DNA of 34,018 nucleotides, taken from assembly GCA_017465475.1 (NCBI GenBank), contig JAFTWC010000014.1, positions 1 to 34,018 on the forward strand, written 5' to 3'. The stretch's first letter is position 1, and each line of letters starts with the position of its first letter. A program made the position numbers and the translations under genes. This document shows, piece after piece, positions 3,390 to 34,018 of this stretch. This DNA is from Lachnospiraceae bacterium. GTDB lineage: Bacteria > Bacillota > Clostridia > Lachnospirales > Lachnospiraceae. The notes under the pieces are model-generated. The model searched no databases and was not told the origin of the DNA. It worked only from the letters and a program-made list of their open reading frames with translations.

Positions 3390-4289
3390 GTGGAGATGCT
3401 TCAAATTACAAATCTGAAGAAGCGGTTCGGCGATAAAGAAGTATTAAAGGGGGTTACACTGGCTGTACCGGAAGGGGGAGTGTTCGGTTTTATCGGGAAA
3501 AACGGTGCCGGAAAAACCACCACCATGAAGACCGTACTGGGCTTGTTAAAGCCGGATGAGGGAACAATCCTTGTGGCGGATGAACCGGTGGTGTACGGGC
3601 AAACCGCAACCAATCGCTATATCGGATATTTGCCGGATGTGCCGGAGTTTTACGATTTTATGACTCCGTCGGAGTACCTTACCTTTTGCGGAGAGATTAC
3701 CGGTATGGACAAAAAAGACATTGTGACCCGCAGAGAGGAGCTTCTGGAGCTGGTAGGACTGTCGGGGGAAAAGCACCGCATCAAAGGATTTTCCAGAGGA
3801 ATGAAGCAACGGCTTGGTATTGCACAGGCACTTTTAGGGCGCCCGAAACTTTTAATTTGTGATGAACCTACTTCGGCACTGGATCCGGTGGGCAGAAAAG
3901 AGATTTTAGATATTTTGCAGGCAGTAAAGGAACAGACGACGGTACTGTTTTCAACCCACATTCTTTCGGATGTGGAGCGGATTTGTACGGATATTGCGTT
4001 TTTACATGACGGTGTTGTCTGTATGCAGGGAAAGCTTTCCGAGATAAAAAGCGGGAAGCGTACTGAAGAATACCGGATTGAGACGGAACGGGAGGCTGAT
4101 GCAAGAACTCTGGCGGAAAAGTTTTCGGAATGTGCATTGTCAGGAGAACGGCAATTGTTATTCCGGGAAGGCAAGGCAACCATATTTGAGCTAATGCGCT
4201 TTTTGGCGGATAAGGAAATTGAAATTGCCGGGGTGGAACGTATGGAACCGTCGTTGGAATCTTTGTTTATGGAGGTGGTAAAGAAATGA
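3390..4289 (+). CDS. ABC transporter ATP-binding protein (ABC-2 type system)
   Basis: 299 residues. Walker A GKNGAGKTT is at about 36-44, the signature region reads FSRGMKQRLG (the variant common in this subfamily), Walker B is LLICDEPTSALDP, and the switch histidine is in FSTHILSDVE. A C-terminal extension of about 80 residues follows, typical of drug- or antibiotic-export ATPases. The start is taken as GTG at 3390, directly after the preceding stop, with AGGAGG eight bases before it. The ATG at 3396 is too far from that site. The permease gene overlaps its stop by ATGA, so the two are coupled. Confidence 0.93.
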   Translation: MEMLQITNLKKRFGDKEVLKGVTLAVPEGGVFGFIGKNGAGKTTTMKTVLGLLKPDEGTILVADEPVVYGQTATNRYIGYLPDVPEFYDFMTPSEYLTFCGEITGMDKKDIVTRREELLELVGLSGEKHRIKGFSRGMKQRLGIAQALLGRPKLLICDEPTSALDPVGRKEILDILQAVKEQTTVLFSTHILSDVERICTDIAFLHDGVVCMQGKLSEIKSGKRTEEYRIETEREADARTLAEKFSECALSGERQLLFREGKATIFELMRFLADKEIEIAGVERMEPSLESLFMEVVKK

Positions 4290-5056
4290 AATCTTTGATT
4301 GCCTTTACAAAAAAAGAATGGATGGAACAGCTTCGGTCCGGACGTCTGTTGCTTCTGTTGATTATTTTTACCTTGTTCGGAATTATGAATCCTGCCATTG
4401 CAAAGCTGACTCCGTGGATATTTGAACTGATGGCGGATTCCTTGGAAGAAAGCGGTATGGTTGTTACCACGGTGACGGTGGATGCCATGACTTCCTGGAC
4501 CCAGTTTTTTAAAAACATTCCTATGGCGCTTATTGTATTTGTACTGATGGAAAGCAGTATTTTTACAAGAGAGTATCAATCGGGCACGTTAGTACTTGCC
4601 CTTACAAAAGGGTTGGAGCGATATAAGGTAGTATTGGCAAAGTCTTTTGTACTGATTGTACTTTGGTCGGCGGGGTATTGGCTTTGCTTCGGAATTACTT
4701 ATGGATATAATTCTTATTTCTGGGACAATGGGATTGTACAGAATCTTTTGTTCTCCGTTACCTGCTGGTGGTTGTTCGGTTTGTTTGTAGTGATGCTGAT
4801 GGTGTTGTTTTCTGTAATGACGGATGCCAATACCGGTGTGCTGCTCGGAACAGGCGGAGTGACTTTGGCGGTATACCTGATTACCTTGTTACCGAAAGCT
4901 GCGCCGTTTTCACCGGCAAAGTTGATGGGAAGCGTTGCGTTGCTTACCGGGGCGGAAGAGAAGGGAGATTACTATAAGGCACTACCGATTACGGTGGTGC
5001 TGTGCGTAGTAGGTGTTATGGCGAGTATTCCGATTCAGAATAATAGGAGATTATAA
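4286..5056 (+). CDS. ABC-2 type permease
   Basis: 256 residues with about six transmembrane helices. It begins with the cytoplasmic KEWMEQLRSGR segment typical of ABC-2 permeases, has a large outside loop after helix 1 (about 45-80) and ends in a short polar tail. It partners the ATPase encoded just before it, with which it shares 4 bases (ATGA). The substrate is unknown. Export of a peptide, drug or lipid would fit the MerR and PLDc_N neighbours but is inference. No intrinsic terminator is obvious right after its stop; a hairpin array begins there instead. Confidence 0.88.
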   Translation: MKSLIAFTKKEWMEQLRSGRLLLLLIIFTLFGIMNPAIAKLTPWIFELMADSLEESGMVVTTVTVDAMTSWTQFFKNIPMALIVFVLMESSIFTREYQSGTLVLALTKGLERYKVVLAKSFVLIVLWSAGYWLCFGITYGYNSYFWDNGIVQNLLFSVTCWWLFGLFVVMLMVLFSVMTDANTGVLLGTGGVTLAVYLITLLPKAAPFSPAKLMGSVALLTGAEEKGDYYKALPITVVLCVVGVMASIPIQNNRRL

Positions 5057-5059
5057 GAA

Positions 5060-5474
5060 TCATGGGAAAGAGAGATTTTTACCATGATAAGCGTGATTTC
5101 CTTGTTTATCATGGTAAGAAAAAGTGCTTGTTTATTTTGAATGCCATGATAAAACTTCATTTCCTTGTTTGTCATGGTAAGAAAAAGTGCTTGTTTATTT
5201 TGAATGCCATGATATAGCTTCATTTTCTTCTTTTTCATGGTACAAAATGGAATGTTTCGCACATGTGAGTAGTTGATTTACTTAAAAAGAAGGGAAAATG
5301 GTCAAGTTCGTACCATGAAATGTAAAAAAAGTAAGGAACTTCATGGTAATATTATAAAAAGAGTTTGATTTTGTACCATGAGAATTTGGTTTGAGTAATC
5401 ATCTCATGGTATTCTGCTGATGTGAAAATATTTTCGTACCATGACAAGTTAAAAATACTAATTGTTCATGGTAA
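5060..5474. repeat. Array of six hairpins built from TACCATGA / TCATGGTA, 63-bp period
   Basis: Core CCATGA occurs at 5082, 5144, 5207, 5313, 5376 and 5439, and its reverse complement TCATGG at 5109, 5172, 5235, 5341, 5404 and 5466. The orientation strictly alternates. Spacing is 27-28 bp inside each pair and 35 bp between pairs, so units repeat every 62-63 bp, with one 106-bp jump between the third and fourth. The arms extend with matching but different bases: 12 bp in pair 1 (5079-5090 with 5106-5117), 9 bp in pair 4 and 10 bp in pair 5. A 43-bp stretch is directly duplicated (5109-5151, 5172-5214); later units share only the cores. An extra out-of-phase TCATGG sits at 5060. No credible gene is present. 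Confidence 0.9.
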
Positions 5475-5505
5475 TTTTCCCAACGAGTCGCTGATAAAAA
5501 TGAAA

Positions 5506-5576
5506 AGGACTGCACCGGGCTGAGTCTAACGGTTACTGCGTACCCGTTAGTCCGCGGCAGTCGCCGCGATAAGAAA
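5506..5576. repeat. GC-rich structured repeat, copy 1
   Basis: A 71-bp unit repeated 76 bp further on with two base differences. It can fold as nested helices: GACTGC with GCAGTC, CGGG with TCCG, and CTAACGG with CCGTTAG, capped by TAC-TGC-GTA. Alternatively its 3' part forms a perfect 6-bp hairpin CGCGGC-AGTC-GCCGCG, which uses the same GCAGTC bases. Its GC content is clearly higher than the surrounding DNA. Confidence 0.9.
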
Positions 5577-5581
5577 GCAAG

Positions 5582-5652
5582 AGGACTGCACCGGGCTGAG
5601 TCTAACGGTTACTTCGTACCCGTTAGCCCGCGGCAGTCGCCGCGATAAGAAA
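5582..5652. repeat. GC-rich structured repeat, copy 2
   Basis: Second copy of the 71-bp unit. One difference from copy 1 falls in the apical loop (TAC-TTC-GTA). The other changes a G.T pair to a G-C pair in the CGGG/CCCG helix, so the fold is kept. It ends in ATAAGAAA, three bases before the hairpin at 5656-5697. Confidence 0.9.
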
Positions 5653-5740: not shown

Positions 5741-7543
5741 TTATGCGTAGTAGGAAGCCTGTGCGTTCCAAAGTTCGTAGTATTTACCCTTTTCGTTCTG
5801 AAGAAGCTCTTCGTGGGTTCCCACCTGTACAATACGGCCCTGATCAAATACAGCAATCTTGTCGCAGAAGCGGCAGGAGGAGAGACGGTGGCTGATGTAG
5901 ATGGCGGTTTTGTCTCCTACGATTTCATCGAACTTCCCGTAAATCTCTGCTTCGGCAATGGGGTCTAAGGCTGCGGTAGGCTCATCAAGGATGATAAACG
6001 GAGCGTCCTTATAAAGTGCTCTTGCTAAAGCGATTTTCTGTGCTTCACCACCGGAAACGTTAACGCCTTCTTCGTCAAAGTTCTTGTAGAGAGAAGTCTC
6101 CAGCTTCTTTGGCATTTCTTCATAGCGTTCCCCGAAGCCCACCTCGTATAACATCTGCTCGGCCTTTACTGCGTCCCAGTTGGCTGCGGAGGCTACGTTG
6201 TTACCAAGCGGCATGGCAAGGAGGTTATAGTCTTGGAATACCACGGAGAACAAGTCCAGATACTGTCTGTAATCGTATTTGCGGACATTGAAATCATTCA
6301 TGTGGATTTCACCCTCTGTCGGGTCGTAGAGACGGCAGAGAAGCTTGATAAATGTGGTCTTACCGCTACCGTTTTGTCCTACCACTGCAAGGCGTTCGCC
6401 CACTTTTAAGTTCAGGTTAATGTCTTTTAAGGCATAGTCTTCGGAACCTGAGTAGCGGAAGCTGACATTTTTAAATTCAATGTCAAACTGCTTGTCGCTG
6501 CGCTTTTCCACGGAAAGGCTGCCCTGGTACATGTCGTTTTGGATATCGAAGTACTCTAAGTAAGTTTCAAGAAACTGCTCGTTGGTTTTCAGAGAACCCA
6601 AAGTATAGAATAAACCGGCGATGTTGTTGGTCAGGATGCCGAGATATCCTACATACTTAATGACACTGCCTACCGGGAAAGCCCCCAAGGTACAGTACAA
6701 ACCGATGATGAGATAGGAGCACAACTCAGAGGCTTTTGTGGAAAGAAAAATCGGGATACGCAGTAAAAAGTCGATATGATTGATTTTGCTGTAAAGTGCT
6801 TTATGTTCCTTCGCAAGACTTTTGTCGATTTCTTCTACAATGGCCTGTTGTTTGTAAAAACGGCTGTCCATGCCGGACTGGCTGTAGCCGCCGGCAAGGC
6901 GGTTTTCCCGGAGCATTAAGTCTCCGCCGAGATTCCAGGTTTCTGCCTGCTTTTTGCCACAACGAGACTGTATCACTACCGTAAGAATGACACAGACTAC
7001 CATGGCAACAAGGAGCAGAATGCCTCGGATATCAAAGGAAAGTTTTAGAATTAAGGATACCATCTCTGCAAATAAAACAATACAATACAGAATGTTAATA
7101 AAATAGGTTGCAATGTTTTCTAAACACATACTCATGTTTTTGACACCGTAGCAGTTAATCCAGGAATTTTCTATGATTTTTCGGCGTAGATGACGGATTT
7201 CCGGATTTTCCAGTTTGTCATAATCTAAGGAAAGTGTCTTTTTATTGAATGCGGCTGCTTCGTTGTGATCCAACTGTTTTTGTGCGTTTTCCACGGCTCT
7301 GCTGAGGAGCGCACCCATGATGTGAATGAACAGGGTTCCGCATAAGGTGATAGCCACCAAAAGGAACAGTTCTTCCTTTGTTTTCTTTTCGTATAATGCG
7401 GTTACGATTTCTGCAGACATCCACAAGGTAAAAAATGGTGTCAGATTGGAAAAAAGTATTTGAAACAGGCGAAGCGGAAAGTAGTGTGGATTATAGGAAT
7501 GGTACAACTTAAACGCCCGTCTGGTGGTTTTGTAATTATGCAT
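5741..7543 (-). CDS. ABC exporter half-transporter (permease-ATPase fusion), second gene of pair
   Basis: 600 residues. An N-terminal transmembrane domain of about six helices (roughly 1-330) is fused to a nucleotide-binding domain. Walker A is GQNGSGKTT, the signature NVSGGEAQKIALARAL, Walker B FIILDEPTAALDP with its catalytic Glu, and the H-loop YISHRLSS. All key residues are intact. The start is taken as the ATG at 7543: AGGAGG lies nine bases before it, whereas the in-frame GTG at 7552 touches that site. The gene overlaps the stop of the preceding exporter gene by 8 bases, so the two probably form a heterodimer. The export substrate is unknown. The upstream operator and the LytTR/GHKL pair suggest a peptide or envelope-stress link (inference). 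Confidence 0.92.
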   Translation of the reverse strand: MHNYKTTRRAFKLYHSYNPHYFPLRLFQILFSNLTPFFTLWMSAEIVTALYEKKTKEELFLLVAITLCGTLFIHIMGALLSRAVENAQKQLDHNEAAAFNKKTLSLDYDKLENPEIRHLRRKIIENSWINCYGVKNMSMCLENIATYFINILYCIVLFAEMVSLILKLSFDIRGILLLVAMVVCVILTVVIQSRCGKKQAETWNLGGDLMLRENRLAGGYSQSGMDSRFYKQQAIVEEIDKSLAKEHKALYSKINHIDFLLRIPIFLSTKASELCSYLIIGLYCTLGAFPVGSVIKYVGYLGILTNNIAGLFYTLGSLKTNEQFLETYLEYFDIQNDMYQGSLSVEKRSDKQFDIEFKNVSFRYSGSEDYALKDINLNLKVGERLAVVGQNGSGKTTFIKLLCRLYDPTEGEIHMNDFNVRKYDYRQYLDLFSVVFQDYNLLAMPLGNNVASAANWDAVKAEQMLYEVGFGERYEEMPKKLETSLYKNFDEEGVNVSGGEAQKIALARALYKDAPFIILDEPTAALDPIAEAEIYGKFDEIVGDKTAIYISHRLSSCRFCDKIAVFDQGRIVQVGTHEELLQNEKGKYYELWNAQASYYA

Positions 7544-9371
7544 GGACTTCACCCTCCTTATAGTATTTGCTTTGTACTTCGAACATTTCTGCGTATTTGC
7601 CTCCCGTAGCCATCAGTTCCTCATGGGAACCGGATTCCGCAATGACACCGTCTTCTAATAAGATGATGCGGTCACAGAAGCGGGTGGAGGCAAAACGGTG
7701 AGAAATATAGATGGAAGTTTTTCCTTCGGTTAATTCTCTGTAACGTAAATATAAGTTGTTTTCCGCAATGGGGTCCAGGGCTGCGGTCGGTTCGTCAAGG
7801 ATTAAAATAGAACCGTTTTTATAGATGGCTCTTGCCAACACCAGCTTTTGCATCTCGCCGCCGGATAAGTCTACGCTGTCGTCGTGGATTCCCTTCATTA
7901 AGTGAGTGTCGATGCCGTTTGGAAGCTTTTCGATTTTATCATAAATTCCGGCAAGCTTCATGGCGGCGATAGCATCTTCTCTTGCGGTAGGGCGCTCAAG
8001 GTCTACACTTGCCACAAACTCAAACATAGAAAAGGCAATGGTCTTGATGTCCTGGAAGACTGCGGAAATCATGGAGTAGTACTCCTCAATGTTATACTCG
8101 TGAATGTGTTTTCCGTTTACTAAGATTTCGCCGGAGGTCGGAGAATATAAGCCACAAATCAGCTTGATTAAGGTGGTCTTGCCGGCCCCGTTCATACCAA
8201 CAAGTGCAAGGCTTTCGCCGGCAGAGATTGTCAGGTTTAATCCGTTTATGGTATCTTTCTCTGCGCCGTCGTAGCGGTAATGAACATCCTTTAATTCAAT
8301 GGTCACCGGACCGGTCGGAAGAGGACAGCCTTCCCCGTGGTTGAAGGTGTTCGGATAGTTGTAGAAGTCGCGATAGTAAGCAATCTTCTCGGCTCTGGTA
8401 TTTAATTTTGCCACACTGCCGATGATGCCCTGCAAAAAGCCTGCGATACTGCCGGTAAGACCAAAATAAAATACAAATTCACCTACGGTGATTTTTCCTG
8501 CAAGAAGCAGTCCGATTAACACGATGTATGCCACACCGTTTTGTACAAAGGTCATAAGTCCCGCAAGAACGGAAGCAAACAGTCCCCTGAGAGTACAACG
8601 CTTATTCCACATGAGAAGGTAGCTTTGGTAATCCCGCATCATTTTGTCGAGCCAGCCCTCTAAATTGTACAGTTTAATATCCTTTGCCATGGAGAAGTTT
8701 TCGGAAAGACTTTGTAAGTAATTTCTCTTCCGGACTTCTTTTTCCCAGTTGTGTTTATTCTTCTCAAAGTAGGTCGGTTGCCAACGGGTGGTAAAGTAGG
8801 AAAGGACGGATACTATCGCAACCACGGCGAAGATAATCGGGTTCAGTACAATCAGAAGTGAAGCATAGGTGAAAATACCGAGGAAGTTAATCAAGGCTTC
8901 GCTTATATCACGCCAAAGGTATTCCAGTGCACAGTCTCCCTGACAGGAGTCACTGCTTGCGTATTCATGTACTTTTCGGTAGTCCTGCTTTTCTGTGTTT
9001 TCAAAGTCGGTTTCGTAATGGTAGATGCGTCCCATCTCCATTTGGTAAATGCCGGTAGGATAATACTGCCTTGCCTTGCAACGGGAATTGATAAAGCCCC
9101 GCAGCAACTCCAAAAGAACCAGTGGAAGTAAAAAGCTGATTGTGAACCGGCATAACGTTGAAAAGGAAGCACCGCTACCGATGCGGTCAATCAGTTCCTT
9201 TGAAAAGAAGGAAGATAACAGCGGAAGAATGACGGCAATCGGTACCACCGCAAATATAAAGAATACAAACATTTTGTCCAGCCCCCAGAGCTTTTTCAGT
9301 GCCCAGGCAAGACTTCCGATTTTGGAATACTTTTTCTTTTCTTTTTTTACTGTTTTGTTCTTTTGTTTCAT
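7536..9371 (-). CDS. ABC exporter half-transporter, first gene of pair
   Basis: 611 residues. A basic N-terminal tail (1-30) precedes a transmembrane domain (about 35-340) and a nucleotide-binding domain with Walker A GMNGAGKTT, signature DLSGGEMQKLVLARA, Walker B ILILDEPTAALDP and H-loop YISHRFAS. Like its partner it keeps the catalytic Glu, so both ATP sites look active, unlike heterodimers with one degenerate site. GGAGGGG precedes the ATG, and a hairpin (9389-9417) lies just upstream of that site in the leader. The next gene overlaps its end by 8 bases. Confidence 0.92.
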   Translation of the reverse strand: MKQKNKTVKKEKKKYSKIGSLAWALKKLWGLDKMFVFFIFAVVPIAVILPLLSSFFSKELIDRIGSGASFSTLCRFTISFLLPLVLLELLRGFINSRCKARQYYPTGIYQMEMGRIYHYETDFENTEKQDYRKVHEYASSDSCQGDCALEYLWRDISEALINFLGIFTYASLLIVLNPIIFAVVAIVSVLSYFTTRWQPTYFEKNKHNWEKEVRKRNYLQSLSENFSMAKDIKLYNLEGWLDKMMRDYQSYLLMWNKRCTLRGLFASVLAGLMTFVQNGVAYIVLIGLLLAGKITVGEFVFYFGLTGSIAGFLQGIIGSVAKLNTRAEKIAYYRDFYNYPNTFNHGEGCPLPTGPVTIELKDVHYRYDGAEKDTINGLNLTISAGESLALVGMNGAGKTTLIKLICGLYSPTSGEILVNGKHIHEYNIEEYYSMISAVFQDIKTIAFSMFEFVASVDLERPTAREDAIAAMKLAGIYDKIEKLPNGIDTHLMKGIHDDSVDLSGGEMQKLVLARAIYKNGSILILDEPTAALDPIAENNLYLRYRELTEGKTSIYISHRFASTRFCDRIILLEDGVIAESGSHEELMATGGKYAEMFEVQSKYYKEGEVHA

Positions 9372-17994: not shown

Positions 17995-18957
17995 ATGTTA
18001 AGATCATTGTGGACCGGTGCATCGGGAATGATTGCACAGCAGACCAATGTAGATACAATTTCAAATAACCTTGCCAATGTAAATACCGTTGGCTATAAAA
18101 AAGAAACCGTAGAGTTCCGTTCTCTTTTGTATCAGAAGTTACAGACGGAAACAACGGATAATAACGGTGATCCGAAGCCGGTGATCGGTCAGGTGGGTTC
18201 CGGTGTGCGTACAGGAGCGATTACCTCCAGATTTACCCAGGGAAATATGACGGCTACGGAAAATCCCTTTGATTTGGCTTTAGATGGAGAAGGGTTCTTT
18301 GCATTACAGACACCGAGCGGAGAGACCGCTTATACCCGCAACGGGTCTTTGGTGTTTGCTATTGCTTCCGACGGTCTGGCACTTACCAATTCCGAGGGGT
18401 ATCCGCTTTTGGATAAGAACGGTTCTCCTATTGTACTTCCTGCGACTACAGATGTTTCCAAATTATCTGTAGATGTGGACGGTCGCATTATCGAAGAAAT
18501 TCAGGTGCCGATAAAGGAGCCGGAGAAAGTCGAAGGCGAAGAAAATGTTGATGATGAAGAAAATGTTGATGGTGAAGAAAACGTCGAAGACGAAGAGAAC
18601 GTAGAAGGGGAAGAAAACGTCGAGGGCGAAGAAAAGAAGGAAGAAATTAAGTACAAAACCGAACATGTGACGGTTGCACAGCTTGGAATTGTACAGTTTA
18701 ATAATCCGTCCGGCCTTGAGAAAGTTTCCGGAAGTCTGTATCAGGTAACTGCAGCATCCGGTGAACCTCGTATGGAGTTGGAAGATACGGCGTTAAAGCG
18801 TAGTGCGGTGCGTTCCGGTTACTTGGAAGCATCCAATGTACAGACAGTGGACGAGATTGTAAATTTGATTGTTGCACAGCGTGCCTACGAAATGAATTCC
18901 AAAGTAATTACGGCATCGGACCAGATGTTGCAGCAGGCGAATAACTTGAGAGGCTAG
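17995..18957 (+). CDS. flgG: Flagellar basal-body rod protein FlgG/FlhP type with an acidic repeat insertion
   Basis: 320 residues, longer than the usual 260 or so. The N-terminal rod motif (LWTGASGMIAQQTNVDTISNNLANVNTVGYK), the central NPFDLALDGEGFFALQTPSGE block and the C-terminal NVQTVDEIVNLIVAQRAYEMNSKVI are typical of distal rod proteins. Between about residues 177 and 220 lies an acidic insert of hexapeptide repeats (E-N-V-D/E-D/G-E) that accounts for the extra length. It probably projects from the rod surface domain (inference). GAGGTG precedes the ATG. Confidence 0.92.
   Translation: MLRSLWTGASGMIAQQTNVDTISNNLANVNTVGYKKETVEFRSLLYQKLQTETTDNNGDPKPVIGQVGSGVRTGAITSRFTQGNMTATENPFDLALDGEGFFALQTPSGETAYTRNGSLVFAIASDGLALTNSEGYPLLDKNGSPIVLPATTDVSKLSVDVDGRIIEEIQVPIKEPEKVEGEENVDDEENVDGEENVEDEENVEGEENVEGEEKKEEIKYKTEHVTVAQLGIVQFNNPSGLEKVSGSLYQVTAASGEPRMELEDTALKRSAVRSGYLEASNVQTVDEIVNLIVAQRAYEMNSKVITASDQMLQQANNLRG
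18529..18645 (+). repeat. Acidic hexapeptide repeats within flgG
   Basis: Five in-frame 18-bp units (18541-18630) encode ENVDDE, ENVDGE, ENVEDE, ENVEGE and ENVEGE, preceded by VEGE and followed by EKKEE. Codons differ between units (AAT/AAC, GTT/GTC/GTA), so the repeat is older than a fresh slippage event and is kept at the protein level. Confidence 0.9.
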
Positions 18958-33838: not shown

Positions 33839-33894
33839 GAGAGAACGCTGTATTGCCGGACGAAAGAAGTAAAATGAAAAAGGTTGAGTGAAAA

Positions 33895-34018
33895 TGTAAA
33901 TTCCTCATGTAAACTTAAATTCCATACTGAAGACTAAATTCAGCATTTTGGGGGTTGACGAATCGCGTCAGCCCCTTTAAAGTGGAATTTAGACCAGACA
34001 ATAAATGAGATTTGCCAA
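33895..34018. mobile_element. Possible terminus of an insertion sequence (IS21-like), cut by window edge
   Basis: TAAATTC recurs at 33897, 33916 and 33935 with an exact 19-bp period, and an inverted copy TGGAATTTA is at 33983-33991. Between them lies a hairpin of GGGGTTGACG (33951-33960) with CGTCAGCCCC (33966-33975). Multiple short repeats after a 5'-TG, as at 33895, are known from the ends of IS21-family elements. No transposase is visible before the window ends, so this is a pattern-based suggestion. The hairpin could alternatively end galK transcription. Confidence 0.35.

Follow-up and report, generated by a model that had tools for sequence, protein, structure and literature searches.

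Between an ABC-2 permease gene (4286–5056, + strand) and a convergent ABC-transporter gene (5741–7552, – strand), the window, by which we mean the whole 34,018-nucleotide stretch of Lachnospiraceae DNA analyzed here, carries twelve copies of one short word in strictly alternating orientation. Does this cluster work as a set of RNA hairpins, or is it DNA that a protein reads? As described below, the array is real, yet it is not a covarying set of RNA hairpins, and comparisons among related genomes indicate that it is DNA read by a protein, most probably a nuclease-like one. Genomes and loci are designated by G and L numbers, G000 being the genome of the window.

Layout of the array

The array occupies positions 5080–5473, 23 bp from the 3' end of the permease gene; the two flanking genes are context and lie outside the system. 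Its twelve half-sites start at 5080, 5142, 5205, 5311, 5374, and 5437 on the + strand and at 5109, 5172, 5235, 5341, 5404, and 5466 on the – strand, bearing out the strict alternation that the initial annotation had reported. The half-site word is TACCATGA, and two of the twelve, at 5142 and 5205, read TGCCATGA. Exact TACCATGA words occurred 11 times in the 34-kb window compared with 0.67 expected, ten of them within 5080–5473, and none of 100 shuffled windows contained 11 or more. The start at 5060 given in the initial annotation has to be moved to 5080, as TCATGGGA, found at 5060, matches with one mismatch and out of register.

The half-sites form six units, which like the array as a whole have no strand: unit 1 (5080–5116, TACCATGA-N21-TCATGGTA), units 2 and 3 (5142–5179 and 5205–5242, both TGCCATGA-N22-TCATGGTA), units 4 and 5 (5311–5348 and 5374–5411, both TACCATGA-N22-TCATGGTA), and unit 6 (5437–5473, TACCATGA-N21-TCATGGTA). 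Start-to-start spacings were 29, 33, 30, 33, 30, 76, 30, 33, 30, 33, and 29 bp, and thus 29 or 30 bp within units and 33 bp between them rather than the 27–28 and 35 bp stated previously. A view of six evenly phased units had also overlooked the step of 76 instead of 33 bp between units 3 and 4, which gives the array a layout of three units, a wide gap, and three units that recurs at other arrays. This central 68-bp gap (5243–5310) places the reference points of its bordering half-sites, defined below, 74 bp apart, or about seven helical turns, and we saw by eye no conserved word among 11 such gaps compared. Units 1–3 are indeed near-copies, forming a 63-bp direct repeat of 94% identity.

Recurrence of the array

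A search of the window's genome with the pattern ACCATGA-N15..35-TCATGGT returned 42 forward matches, distributed over nine arrays on nine contigs, and a backward-read control pattern gave no match there. Matches were present in five of ten genomes of the genus, which are 72–97% complete (42, 40, 8, 2, and 1 matches), the single G004 match being lost once the loop was held to 20–22. Among the stretches examined in G007, eight arrays have four or more half-sites. When one genome per species was searched with a three-arm pattern (84,980 species), we found 13 stretches, all in the Lachnospiraceae MAGs RGIG5355, RGIG7215, and SIG307; viral contigs yielded no TACCATGA half-site array. Degenerate patterns were the effective tool, because spacers diverge and direct BLAST of the window array against 61 genomes therefore found matches in just four. 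Recurrence at other loci and in other genomes, for which the initial annotation had proposed a search, was thus observed.

Helical phasing of the half-sites

For measurements of spacing, we collected 116 units (232 half-sites) from 20 arrays in four species, each represented by one genome, with no more than one mismatch in each arm to T[AG]CCATGA. In this sample, 202 of the 232 half-sites were exactly TACCATGA, a conservation that in part reflects how the units were selected, because they were collected by core match; the spacings are unaffected. Outside the half-site the flank is weakly T-rich, and an A stands two bases inside it. We set the reference point for intervals between half-site bases 3 and 4, chosen to equalize both kinds of interval; this choice bears on the equality of the two intervals and not on the unit length of ~63 bp.

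After dropping half-sites without a neighbor at 29–34 bp as off-register, neighboring half-sites were 31.43 ± 0.54 bp apart (n = 206), or three turns of 10.48 bp, with 203 of these 206 intervals being 31 or 32 bp and orientation alternating in 205. Before filtering, 201 of 225 intervals were 31 or 32 bp, three were 29–30 bp, ten were wide gaps of 63–75 bp, and the other 11 arose from stray one-mismatch matches, missing half-sites, or a distant neighbor. Counted by array, wide gaps measured 73–75 bp in nine arrays, 63 bp in one, and 43 bp in one (about seven, six, and four turns). As the regular intervals average 31.43 bp and the gaps also fall near whole turns, all half-sites lie on about one face of the helix. 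Among the 15 solo arrays of five or more units, nine had the form of three units, seven turns, and three units, and the gap was absent in all three TACCATGA arrays that adjoin a gene described below. The alternation in 205 of 206 neighbors, in place of direct repeats, and the absence of cas families among 30 flanking proteins scanned speak against a CRISPR array.

Tests of pairing

The initial annotation had taken arm extensions that differ between units and still match (GATAA/TTATC, GAA/TTC, GAGA/TCTC) as a sign of selection on pairing rather than on sequence. These extensions are present in the window, but they do not covary: over the 116 units of 20 arrays, no inner position from +1 to +8 and no outer position from –1 to –10 showed complementarity significantly above shuffled expectation, and several of these 18 positions fell below it. 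Within the core, one variant is common (A to G at base 2); of the 20 units that vary, three have it on both arms and 17 on a single arm (Fisher p = 0.08). What is kept is therefore the sequence, with its 202 exact half-sites, and not outer pairing, the reverse of the earlier claim. Folding of the window array was more favorable than that of shuffled sequences on both strands (z –6.27 and –4.64), and a scan of the window against Rfam 15 detected, at gathering score, a tRNA at the window edge and nothing else.

Conservation of arrays at single loci

Several arrays occupy the same place in different species. An array follows rplA in G000, G003, G005, and G007, with rplJ next in G003 and G007 and the contig end coming first in G000 and G005. 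Another lies between pheT and a sigma-factor gene in G007 and G000, the G000 copy having an acetyltransferase gene on its pheT side, and a third stands beside PadR and sigma genes in G000 and is matched in G007 by L055, judging from alignment and from the lengths and directions of the genes. A fourth group is the locus of the nuclease-like gene discussed below. In these four groups, with L051 of G005 outside the alignment, half-sites were 0.92–0.99 identical and the rest of the array 0.56–0.68; core columns were chosen by a half-site match in at least one sequence, which favors the core, though not to the extent observed. L024/L032, a fifth pair, has a Nudix gene nearby and is of unproven orthology; it gave 0.90 for half-sites and 0.42 for the rest. 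From these alignments, the arrays appear to be kept by selection at each place.

None of the ten arrays in G000 and G007 with a Pfam-recognized gene on both sides lies between two 5' ends (the window array, L024, L027, L029, L030, L032, L033, L034, L052, and L054, of which L032 has a nearer unscanned ORF). Two of the four solo arrays in G009, L171 and L173, do lie between ORFs that point away from each other, as judged from ORFs only. With about 6 kb per side compared, no ORF flanking the four G009 arrays matched one beside the arrays of G000, G003, or G007, and one neighbor of L172 has a homolog in L054, at a distance of about 6.5 kb from that array. L172 and L173 share spacers and one flank, together with a block of ~100 bp outside the array.

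The ABC-transporter gene of the window has close orthologs in G007, G003, G004, and G006 (91–95% identity) and a 67% one in G002. No array lies within 1.5 kb of these orthologs and their neighbors differ, so that no clean empty site was found with which the window array could be compared. By eye, L150, L152, and L153, beside this ortholog, have a gene resembling a small helix-turn-helix regulator where the window has the permease gene and the array, and the window locus has therefore been rearranged.

A nuclease-like protein encoded beside arrays

The longest TACCATGA arrays, L031 with nine units and L058 and L049 with seven, lie directly upstream of a gene for a protein of 268–279 residues that has no Pfam match. 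In the window's genome, a contig other than that of the window (C68) carries the gene, preceded immediately by an array of its own that is longer and has no gap. Homologs were found in 14 of 41 genomes searched; close orthologs (at least 72% identity) are present in G000, G003 (with a broken frame), G005, and G007, and one of 52% in G009, and all five adjoin the same aminotransferase gene. Among 299 genomes of the phylum, full-length matches occurred in four, all from the same family as the window's genome, and any match in 17, mostly confined to one of the two halves. For the viral and plasmid relatives found, the match lies mainly in the nuclease domain described next, and the 1 kb preceding a full-length relative in the phage record MT839528 contains no array.

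The C-terminal half is predicted to be a PD-(D/E)XK-type nuclease domain, which is also common to large proteins, some of them annotated as helicases. Ser163, Lys164, Glu166, Pro196, Asp197, Phe198, His213, and Gly215 were invariant in 19 sequences, and Glu212 was kept in at least 90%; the predicted domain thus retains S-x-x-E, PDF, and EH motifs, with histidine replacing the lysine of ExK. PD-(D/E)XK nuclease folds have a helix-strand-strand-strand-helix-strand order. A structure predicted from an eight-row alignment (mean pLDDT 80.5, pTM 0.54) contains a C-terminal helix at 164–175, strands at 180–182, 198–202, and 207–214, a helix at 220–235, and a strand at 244–248, blocks mostly above pLDDT 90, and this confidently modeled order would fit such folds.

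The modeled N-terminal half has a helix at 3–29, two short strands in a poorly predicted stretch, and a long helix at 66–104; with residues 35–60 below pLDDT 50, the model speaks neither for nor against a DNA-binding fold. Of four stand-alone relatives of this half, two matched DUF6788 below its cut-off (E values of 2e-4 and 2e-3; 18.5 and 21.7 bits compared with 27.2), and three N-terminal halves that were themselves scanned did not; the half may be distantly like DUF6788. Relatives of the N-terminal half without the nuclease half occur in other families of the phylum (L135, L137, L138, and L141), with no array before the match.

We found no curated family covering the full ~270-residue protein, and a sequence search of the PDB with one protein and the profile gave nothing convincing. 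No ribbon-helix-helix or helix-turn-helix ParB-type domain scored above cut-off in the protein, no transposase match did so in the gene beside the arrays, and eight homologs scanned against Pfam and NCBIfam contained no ToxN/CptN/TenpN-type toxin.

The distribution of gene and arrays among the ten genomes of the genus can be compared directly. G000 and G007, with an intact gene, have many TACCATGA arrays, and G009, also with an intact gene, has four solo arrays of the word TACCATT in addition to the gene array. G003, where the gene is broken, has, besides the gene array, one complete solo array and a single unit. In G005, where the N-terminus is changed, the array at the gene is built of TACCATT words, and a remnant of two TACCATGA units follows rplA. 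TACCATT was looked for in G005 and G009 only. No TACCATGA arrays were found in G001, G002, G004, G006, or G008, which have no close ortholog; G008 has a distant homolog with its own, different array.

Arrays with other half-sites

A phased array precedes the homolog in 19 of 32 upstream regions (19 of 30 distinct genes, as two genes were entered twice), mostly with half-sites other than TACCATGA, and one further array lies 3' of its gene, at L111. The detector accepted any period of 48–78 bp and found arrays in 12 of 19 upstream regions of its first set; model-1 shuffles gave no false array in 19 regions and one false score in 21 regions. As a control, 256 regions upstream of ORFs at these loci yielded 27 positives, all of which we assigned to array-bearing homologs, dispersed arrays of the genus, or ORFs adjoining these. 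The arrays of L096, where 182 bp were available, and L124 were missed by the detector and recognized by eye. No array was detectable in 13 of the 32 regions (11 of 30 distinct genes), which include those of the second and third homologs in the window's genome (L098 and L108), and of eight loci encoding the nuclease domain only, the five whose frame start lies within the DNA examined had no array before it. Direct tandem repeats of 36 bp and 30 bp, which do not alternate, are present at L108 (77–365) and in the upstream region of L109.

Half-site words at the homologs include TACCATT (G005), TACCATN (G009), GCATC (G013), TACCACC (G020), ACCAA (G007), CCCGACTA (G003), CCGTGGGCCTG (G008), CCAGCATGC (G043), TTACGTACTAC and TGACCGCA (both G016), and TTACAACTG and TTCACCT (both G018). 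In G016, the array occurs only at the gene. G202 has eight family matches, one a short fragment (L125, L140, and L143–L148), five of which have arrays of different words with units of five, six, or seven turns.

Unit length varied in steps. Mean units of the 19 upstream arrays were 51.5–54.5, 62.3–64.0, or 71.9–74.4 bp, and 17 of the 19 fell within 1.5 bp of five, six, or seven times 10.5 bp, the largest deviation being 2.0 bp. Placed on a 10.5-bp circle, these lengths gave R = 0.886, a value reached in none of 400,000 uniform draws; the helical modulus is not sharply fixed, with 9.9 to 10.5 fitting about equally, and the 19 lengths are not 19 independent draws, because homologs share ancestry. 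Together with the 31.43-bp spacing of TACCATGA half-sites, these multiples lend good support to one option of the initial annotation, an array of sites for a DNA-binding protein. Its suggestion of a hairpin-specific nuclease survives in part, as the arrays accompany a PD-(D/E)XK-type family; nothing indicates recognition of hairpins.

Seven of the eight upstream neighbors of gene-plus-array units were recognized and are housekeeping-type genes pointing in the same direction: tuf (L095), comEC (L099 and L107), rpsI (L101), guaA (L103 and L144), and yebC (L104). The guaA neighbors occur in two genera, and the comEC and guaA loci carry different words in different species.

Co-change of the N-terminal half and the half-site

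L058 and L093, whose arrays have TACCATGA and TACCATT half-sites, respectively, encode proteins that are 0.54 identical over N-terminal residues 25–85 and 0.92 identical over the nuclease domain. Windowed identity was 0.38–0.67 up to residue ~150 and 0.79–1.0 beyond it, and this sharp step looks like a probable exchange of the N-terminal half in one species. Two other pairs with different half-sites gave 0.51 and 0.83 (L097/L099) and 0.43 and 0.73 (L096/L100, the L096 word being read by eye) over the same regions, and a pair with the same half-site, L058/L031, gave 0.80 and 0.88. The array-less L098 compared with L097 and L099 gave 0.51–0.52 and 0.78, much as L097 and L099 compare with each other, and L058/L094 gave 0.54 and 0.62. 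Because L093 and L094 share a half-site despite an identity of only 0.56 over residues 25–85, compared with 0.62 over the nuclease domain, the link between N-terminus and half-site rests on few pairs.

Proposed explanation and alternatives

The reading that we consider probable, on grounds of sequence comparison, is that the arrays are binding arrays of a sequence-specific nuclease-like protein, with an operator beside its gene and solo arrays elsewhere. Monomers would bind 8-bp half-sites on one face of the helix, three turns apart and in alternating orientation, and neighboring monomers would meet head-to-head and tail-to-tail to form a regular nucleoprotein strip. The N-terminal half of the ~270-residue protein would read the half-site, with the predicted PD-(D/E)XK-type nuclease forming the C-terminal half. 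Because related arrays with other words adjoin genes of the nuclease-like family, the half-site word is very probably the landing site of the protein. The array upstream of the gene would most simply be an autoregulatory operator, the window array would be one of several solo arrays kept by selection, and these solo arrays would most likely hold or titrate the protein, keeping free nuclease low. Counting against this reading are the 13 array-less regions among the 32 upstream of homologs, the strict 3 + 3 layout, which titration does not explain, and the repeated origin that is needed because the solo arrays of G009 lie at other places than those of G000 and G007.

A tentative and rather unlikely further idea is that double-stranded DNA itself serves as a kind of antitoxin that keeps the nuclease in check. 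Each nuclease's phased strip would then be operator and storage rack, further solo strips would soak the nuclease up, and a changed recognition half would force a change of half-site in the strips.

Several alternatives place the cause elsewhere. An unrelated host regulator might bind the arrays, the adjacent nuclease-like gene being incidental; eight of the nine arrays in the window's genome have no such gene beside them, but the other-word arrays in 19 of 32 homolog regions and the joint change of N-terminus and half-site make this very unlikely. Little more probable, and in our judgment quite doubtful, is transcription of the array into an RNA of several hairpins, such as a repeat antitoxin preceding a toxin gene in the style of type III toxin-antitoxin systems. 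Covariation is absent, the array matches no Rfam family at gathering score, and no toxin family was matched by the nuclease-like protein; loops and linkers keep their lengths to about ±1 but not their sequence, and units fall near multiples of 10.5 bp, constancies that RNA hairpins do not need. Such an RNA would nevertheless suit the favorable folding of both window strands and the placement of tandem, inverted-arm repeats immediately before a nuclease-like gene, and at L058 the array may be in the 5' transcript, because a simple consensus scan found no promoter-like match between array and gene.

A mobile element, in which gene plus array would be an autonomous copy inserting 3' of housekeeping genes and solo arrays would be non-autonomous copies that it mobilizes, stays alive because gene-plus-array units follow housekeeping-type genes, seven of eight in number and co-directional, some of which we take to be integration hot spots. 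The shared spacers and flank of two G009 arrays and the different places of arrays in G009 compared with G000 and G007 also suit it, but the shared stretch of L172 and L173 includes the ~100-bp block outside the array, as in ordinary duplication, conservation beyond the half-sites is absent, and an unsystematic look revealed no target duplication. Moreover, solo arrays keep their locus across species with half-sites 96–99% identical as the rest falls to 56–64%, which asks for a function at the site; we regard a mobile origin as unlikely. We also think it unlikely that solo arrays are centromere-like or domain-marking sites of chromosome architecture or partition, distributed around the chromosome and bound by the nuclease-like or another protein. 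The nine intergenic arrays of the window's genome, the absence of both-side-recognized arrays between two 5' ends (zero of ten in G000 and G007), the symmetric 3 + 3 layout, and a resemblance to the multi-site arrays of pSM19035 (PMC9499535) speak for such a role. L171 and L173 of G009, between ORFs pointing away from each other (ORFs only), do not conform, and an array is hardly essential, because TACCATGA arrays are absent in five of ten congeners, one of which, G009, has TACCATT ones.

If the arrays are indeed binding arrays of the nuclease-like protein, some 18 different recognition words beside their proteins would form a natural series that follows one geometry rule, whole helical turns on one face, and that includes at least one case in which the recognition half was probably exchanged in nature. 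They would offer a ready system for studying how the N-terminal domain, and perhaps DUF6788 at large, reads DNA, and would explain a class of puzzling intergenic repeats in Lachnospiraceae. A further question would then be why such long tracts of sites exist for a nuclease-like protein.

Relation to known systems

The nearest working analog is the parS heptad arrays of pSM19035, which differ in spacing, protein, and partner (PMC9499535). The cited work describes short, non-palindromic sites in direct or inverted neighboring orientation that Omega (ParB) binds with high affinity, in arrays at six places that overlap the promoters of the plasmid's own genes (PMC9499535). Its sites are, by the same account, 7 bp long and consecutive, whereas the half-sites described here are three turns apart. 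Omega is a ribbon-helix-helix protein with a ParA partner, and the present protein is nuclease-like. To our knowledge, Omega has no nuclease domain.

The C-terminal ~120 residues of PDC-S68, a phage-defense candidate in PADLOC, match the present nuclease domain (best E values of 1e-22 to 1e-28 for six proteins). The PDC-S68 models span about 1200 positions and lack the N-terminal half, and the best model was matched only at ~1090–1219 of its 1221 positions, short of a full-length match. DUF6788 (PF20586) is of unknown function, and no array was seen before its two matching relatives.

Type III toxin-antitoxin loci, like the present ones, have tandem repeats directly upstream of a nuclease-like gene. 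The present loci differ in their DNA-phased alternating half-sites and in the protein domain, and L058, the one locus scanned (6800–7700), has no terminator-like site between repeats and gene. The REP/BIME elements of enterobacteria are intergenic repeats of alternating orientation in many copies; our arrays, by contrast, have no covarying palindrome and are helically phased, and the gene beside them has no transposase match. In HsdS-type switching of restriction specificity, the recognition half diverges or is exchanged and the nuclease part stays. The greater variation of the N-terminal half than of the nuclease half would be a likeness to this switching, by analogy; as differences, no methylase was seen beside the gene among the ORFs examined, and the cognate sites lie in arrays.

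Among open-licence papers in PubMed Central, judged by title and abstract, we found no description of such arrays or of their pairing with this protein, and in that collection we found no paper on PDC-S68 or DUF6788. With caution, we rate the pairing of gene and phased array as new as a system; its parts, DNA-binding arrays and a PD-(D/E)XK domain, are of known kinds.

Other repeats near array loci

Between the window array and the end of the ABC-transporter gene, a G+C-rich hairpin (CTAACGG...CCGTTAG, GGCAGTCGCCG) occurs as two tandem 76-bp copies at 5498–5649. These hairpins were first taken as part of the array element, because three arrays stop ~200 bp short of a contig end; no second copy was found beside other array loci examined, and the hairpin is a repeat separate from the array. 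Elsewhere in the window's genome, nothing beyond a 30-bp match was found, and by eye there are four copies in G007 (L150), two in G004 (L152), one in G006 (L153), and part of one in G003 (L151).

Within the window, 18-bp tandem repeats (18529–18635; 5.9 copies, 79%) lie inside an ORF at 17995–18957. Positions 33862–34018 are 97% identical to L025 (7807–7962); both are contig ends of one genome, one array contig stops there, and the stretch is perhaps the end of an insertion sequence.

Between rplA and rplJ in G004 (L061), a different insert of ~350 bp stands at the place of the relatives' array and has, by eye, inverted ends of ~18 bp (GAATTCGGGTGTCAAAGC). A G+C-rich repeat (GTGAGCATTGA...GCGAACGCGCCCACGAC) was seen by eye after the rplA terminator in three species (L059, L062, and L064), where it occurs with the array (G000, G007) or without it (G006).
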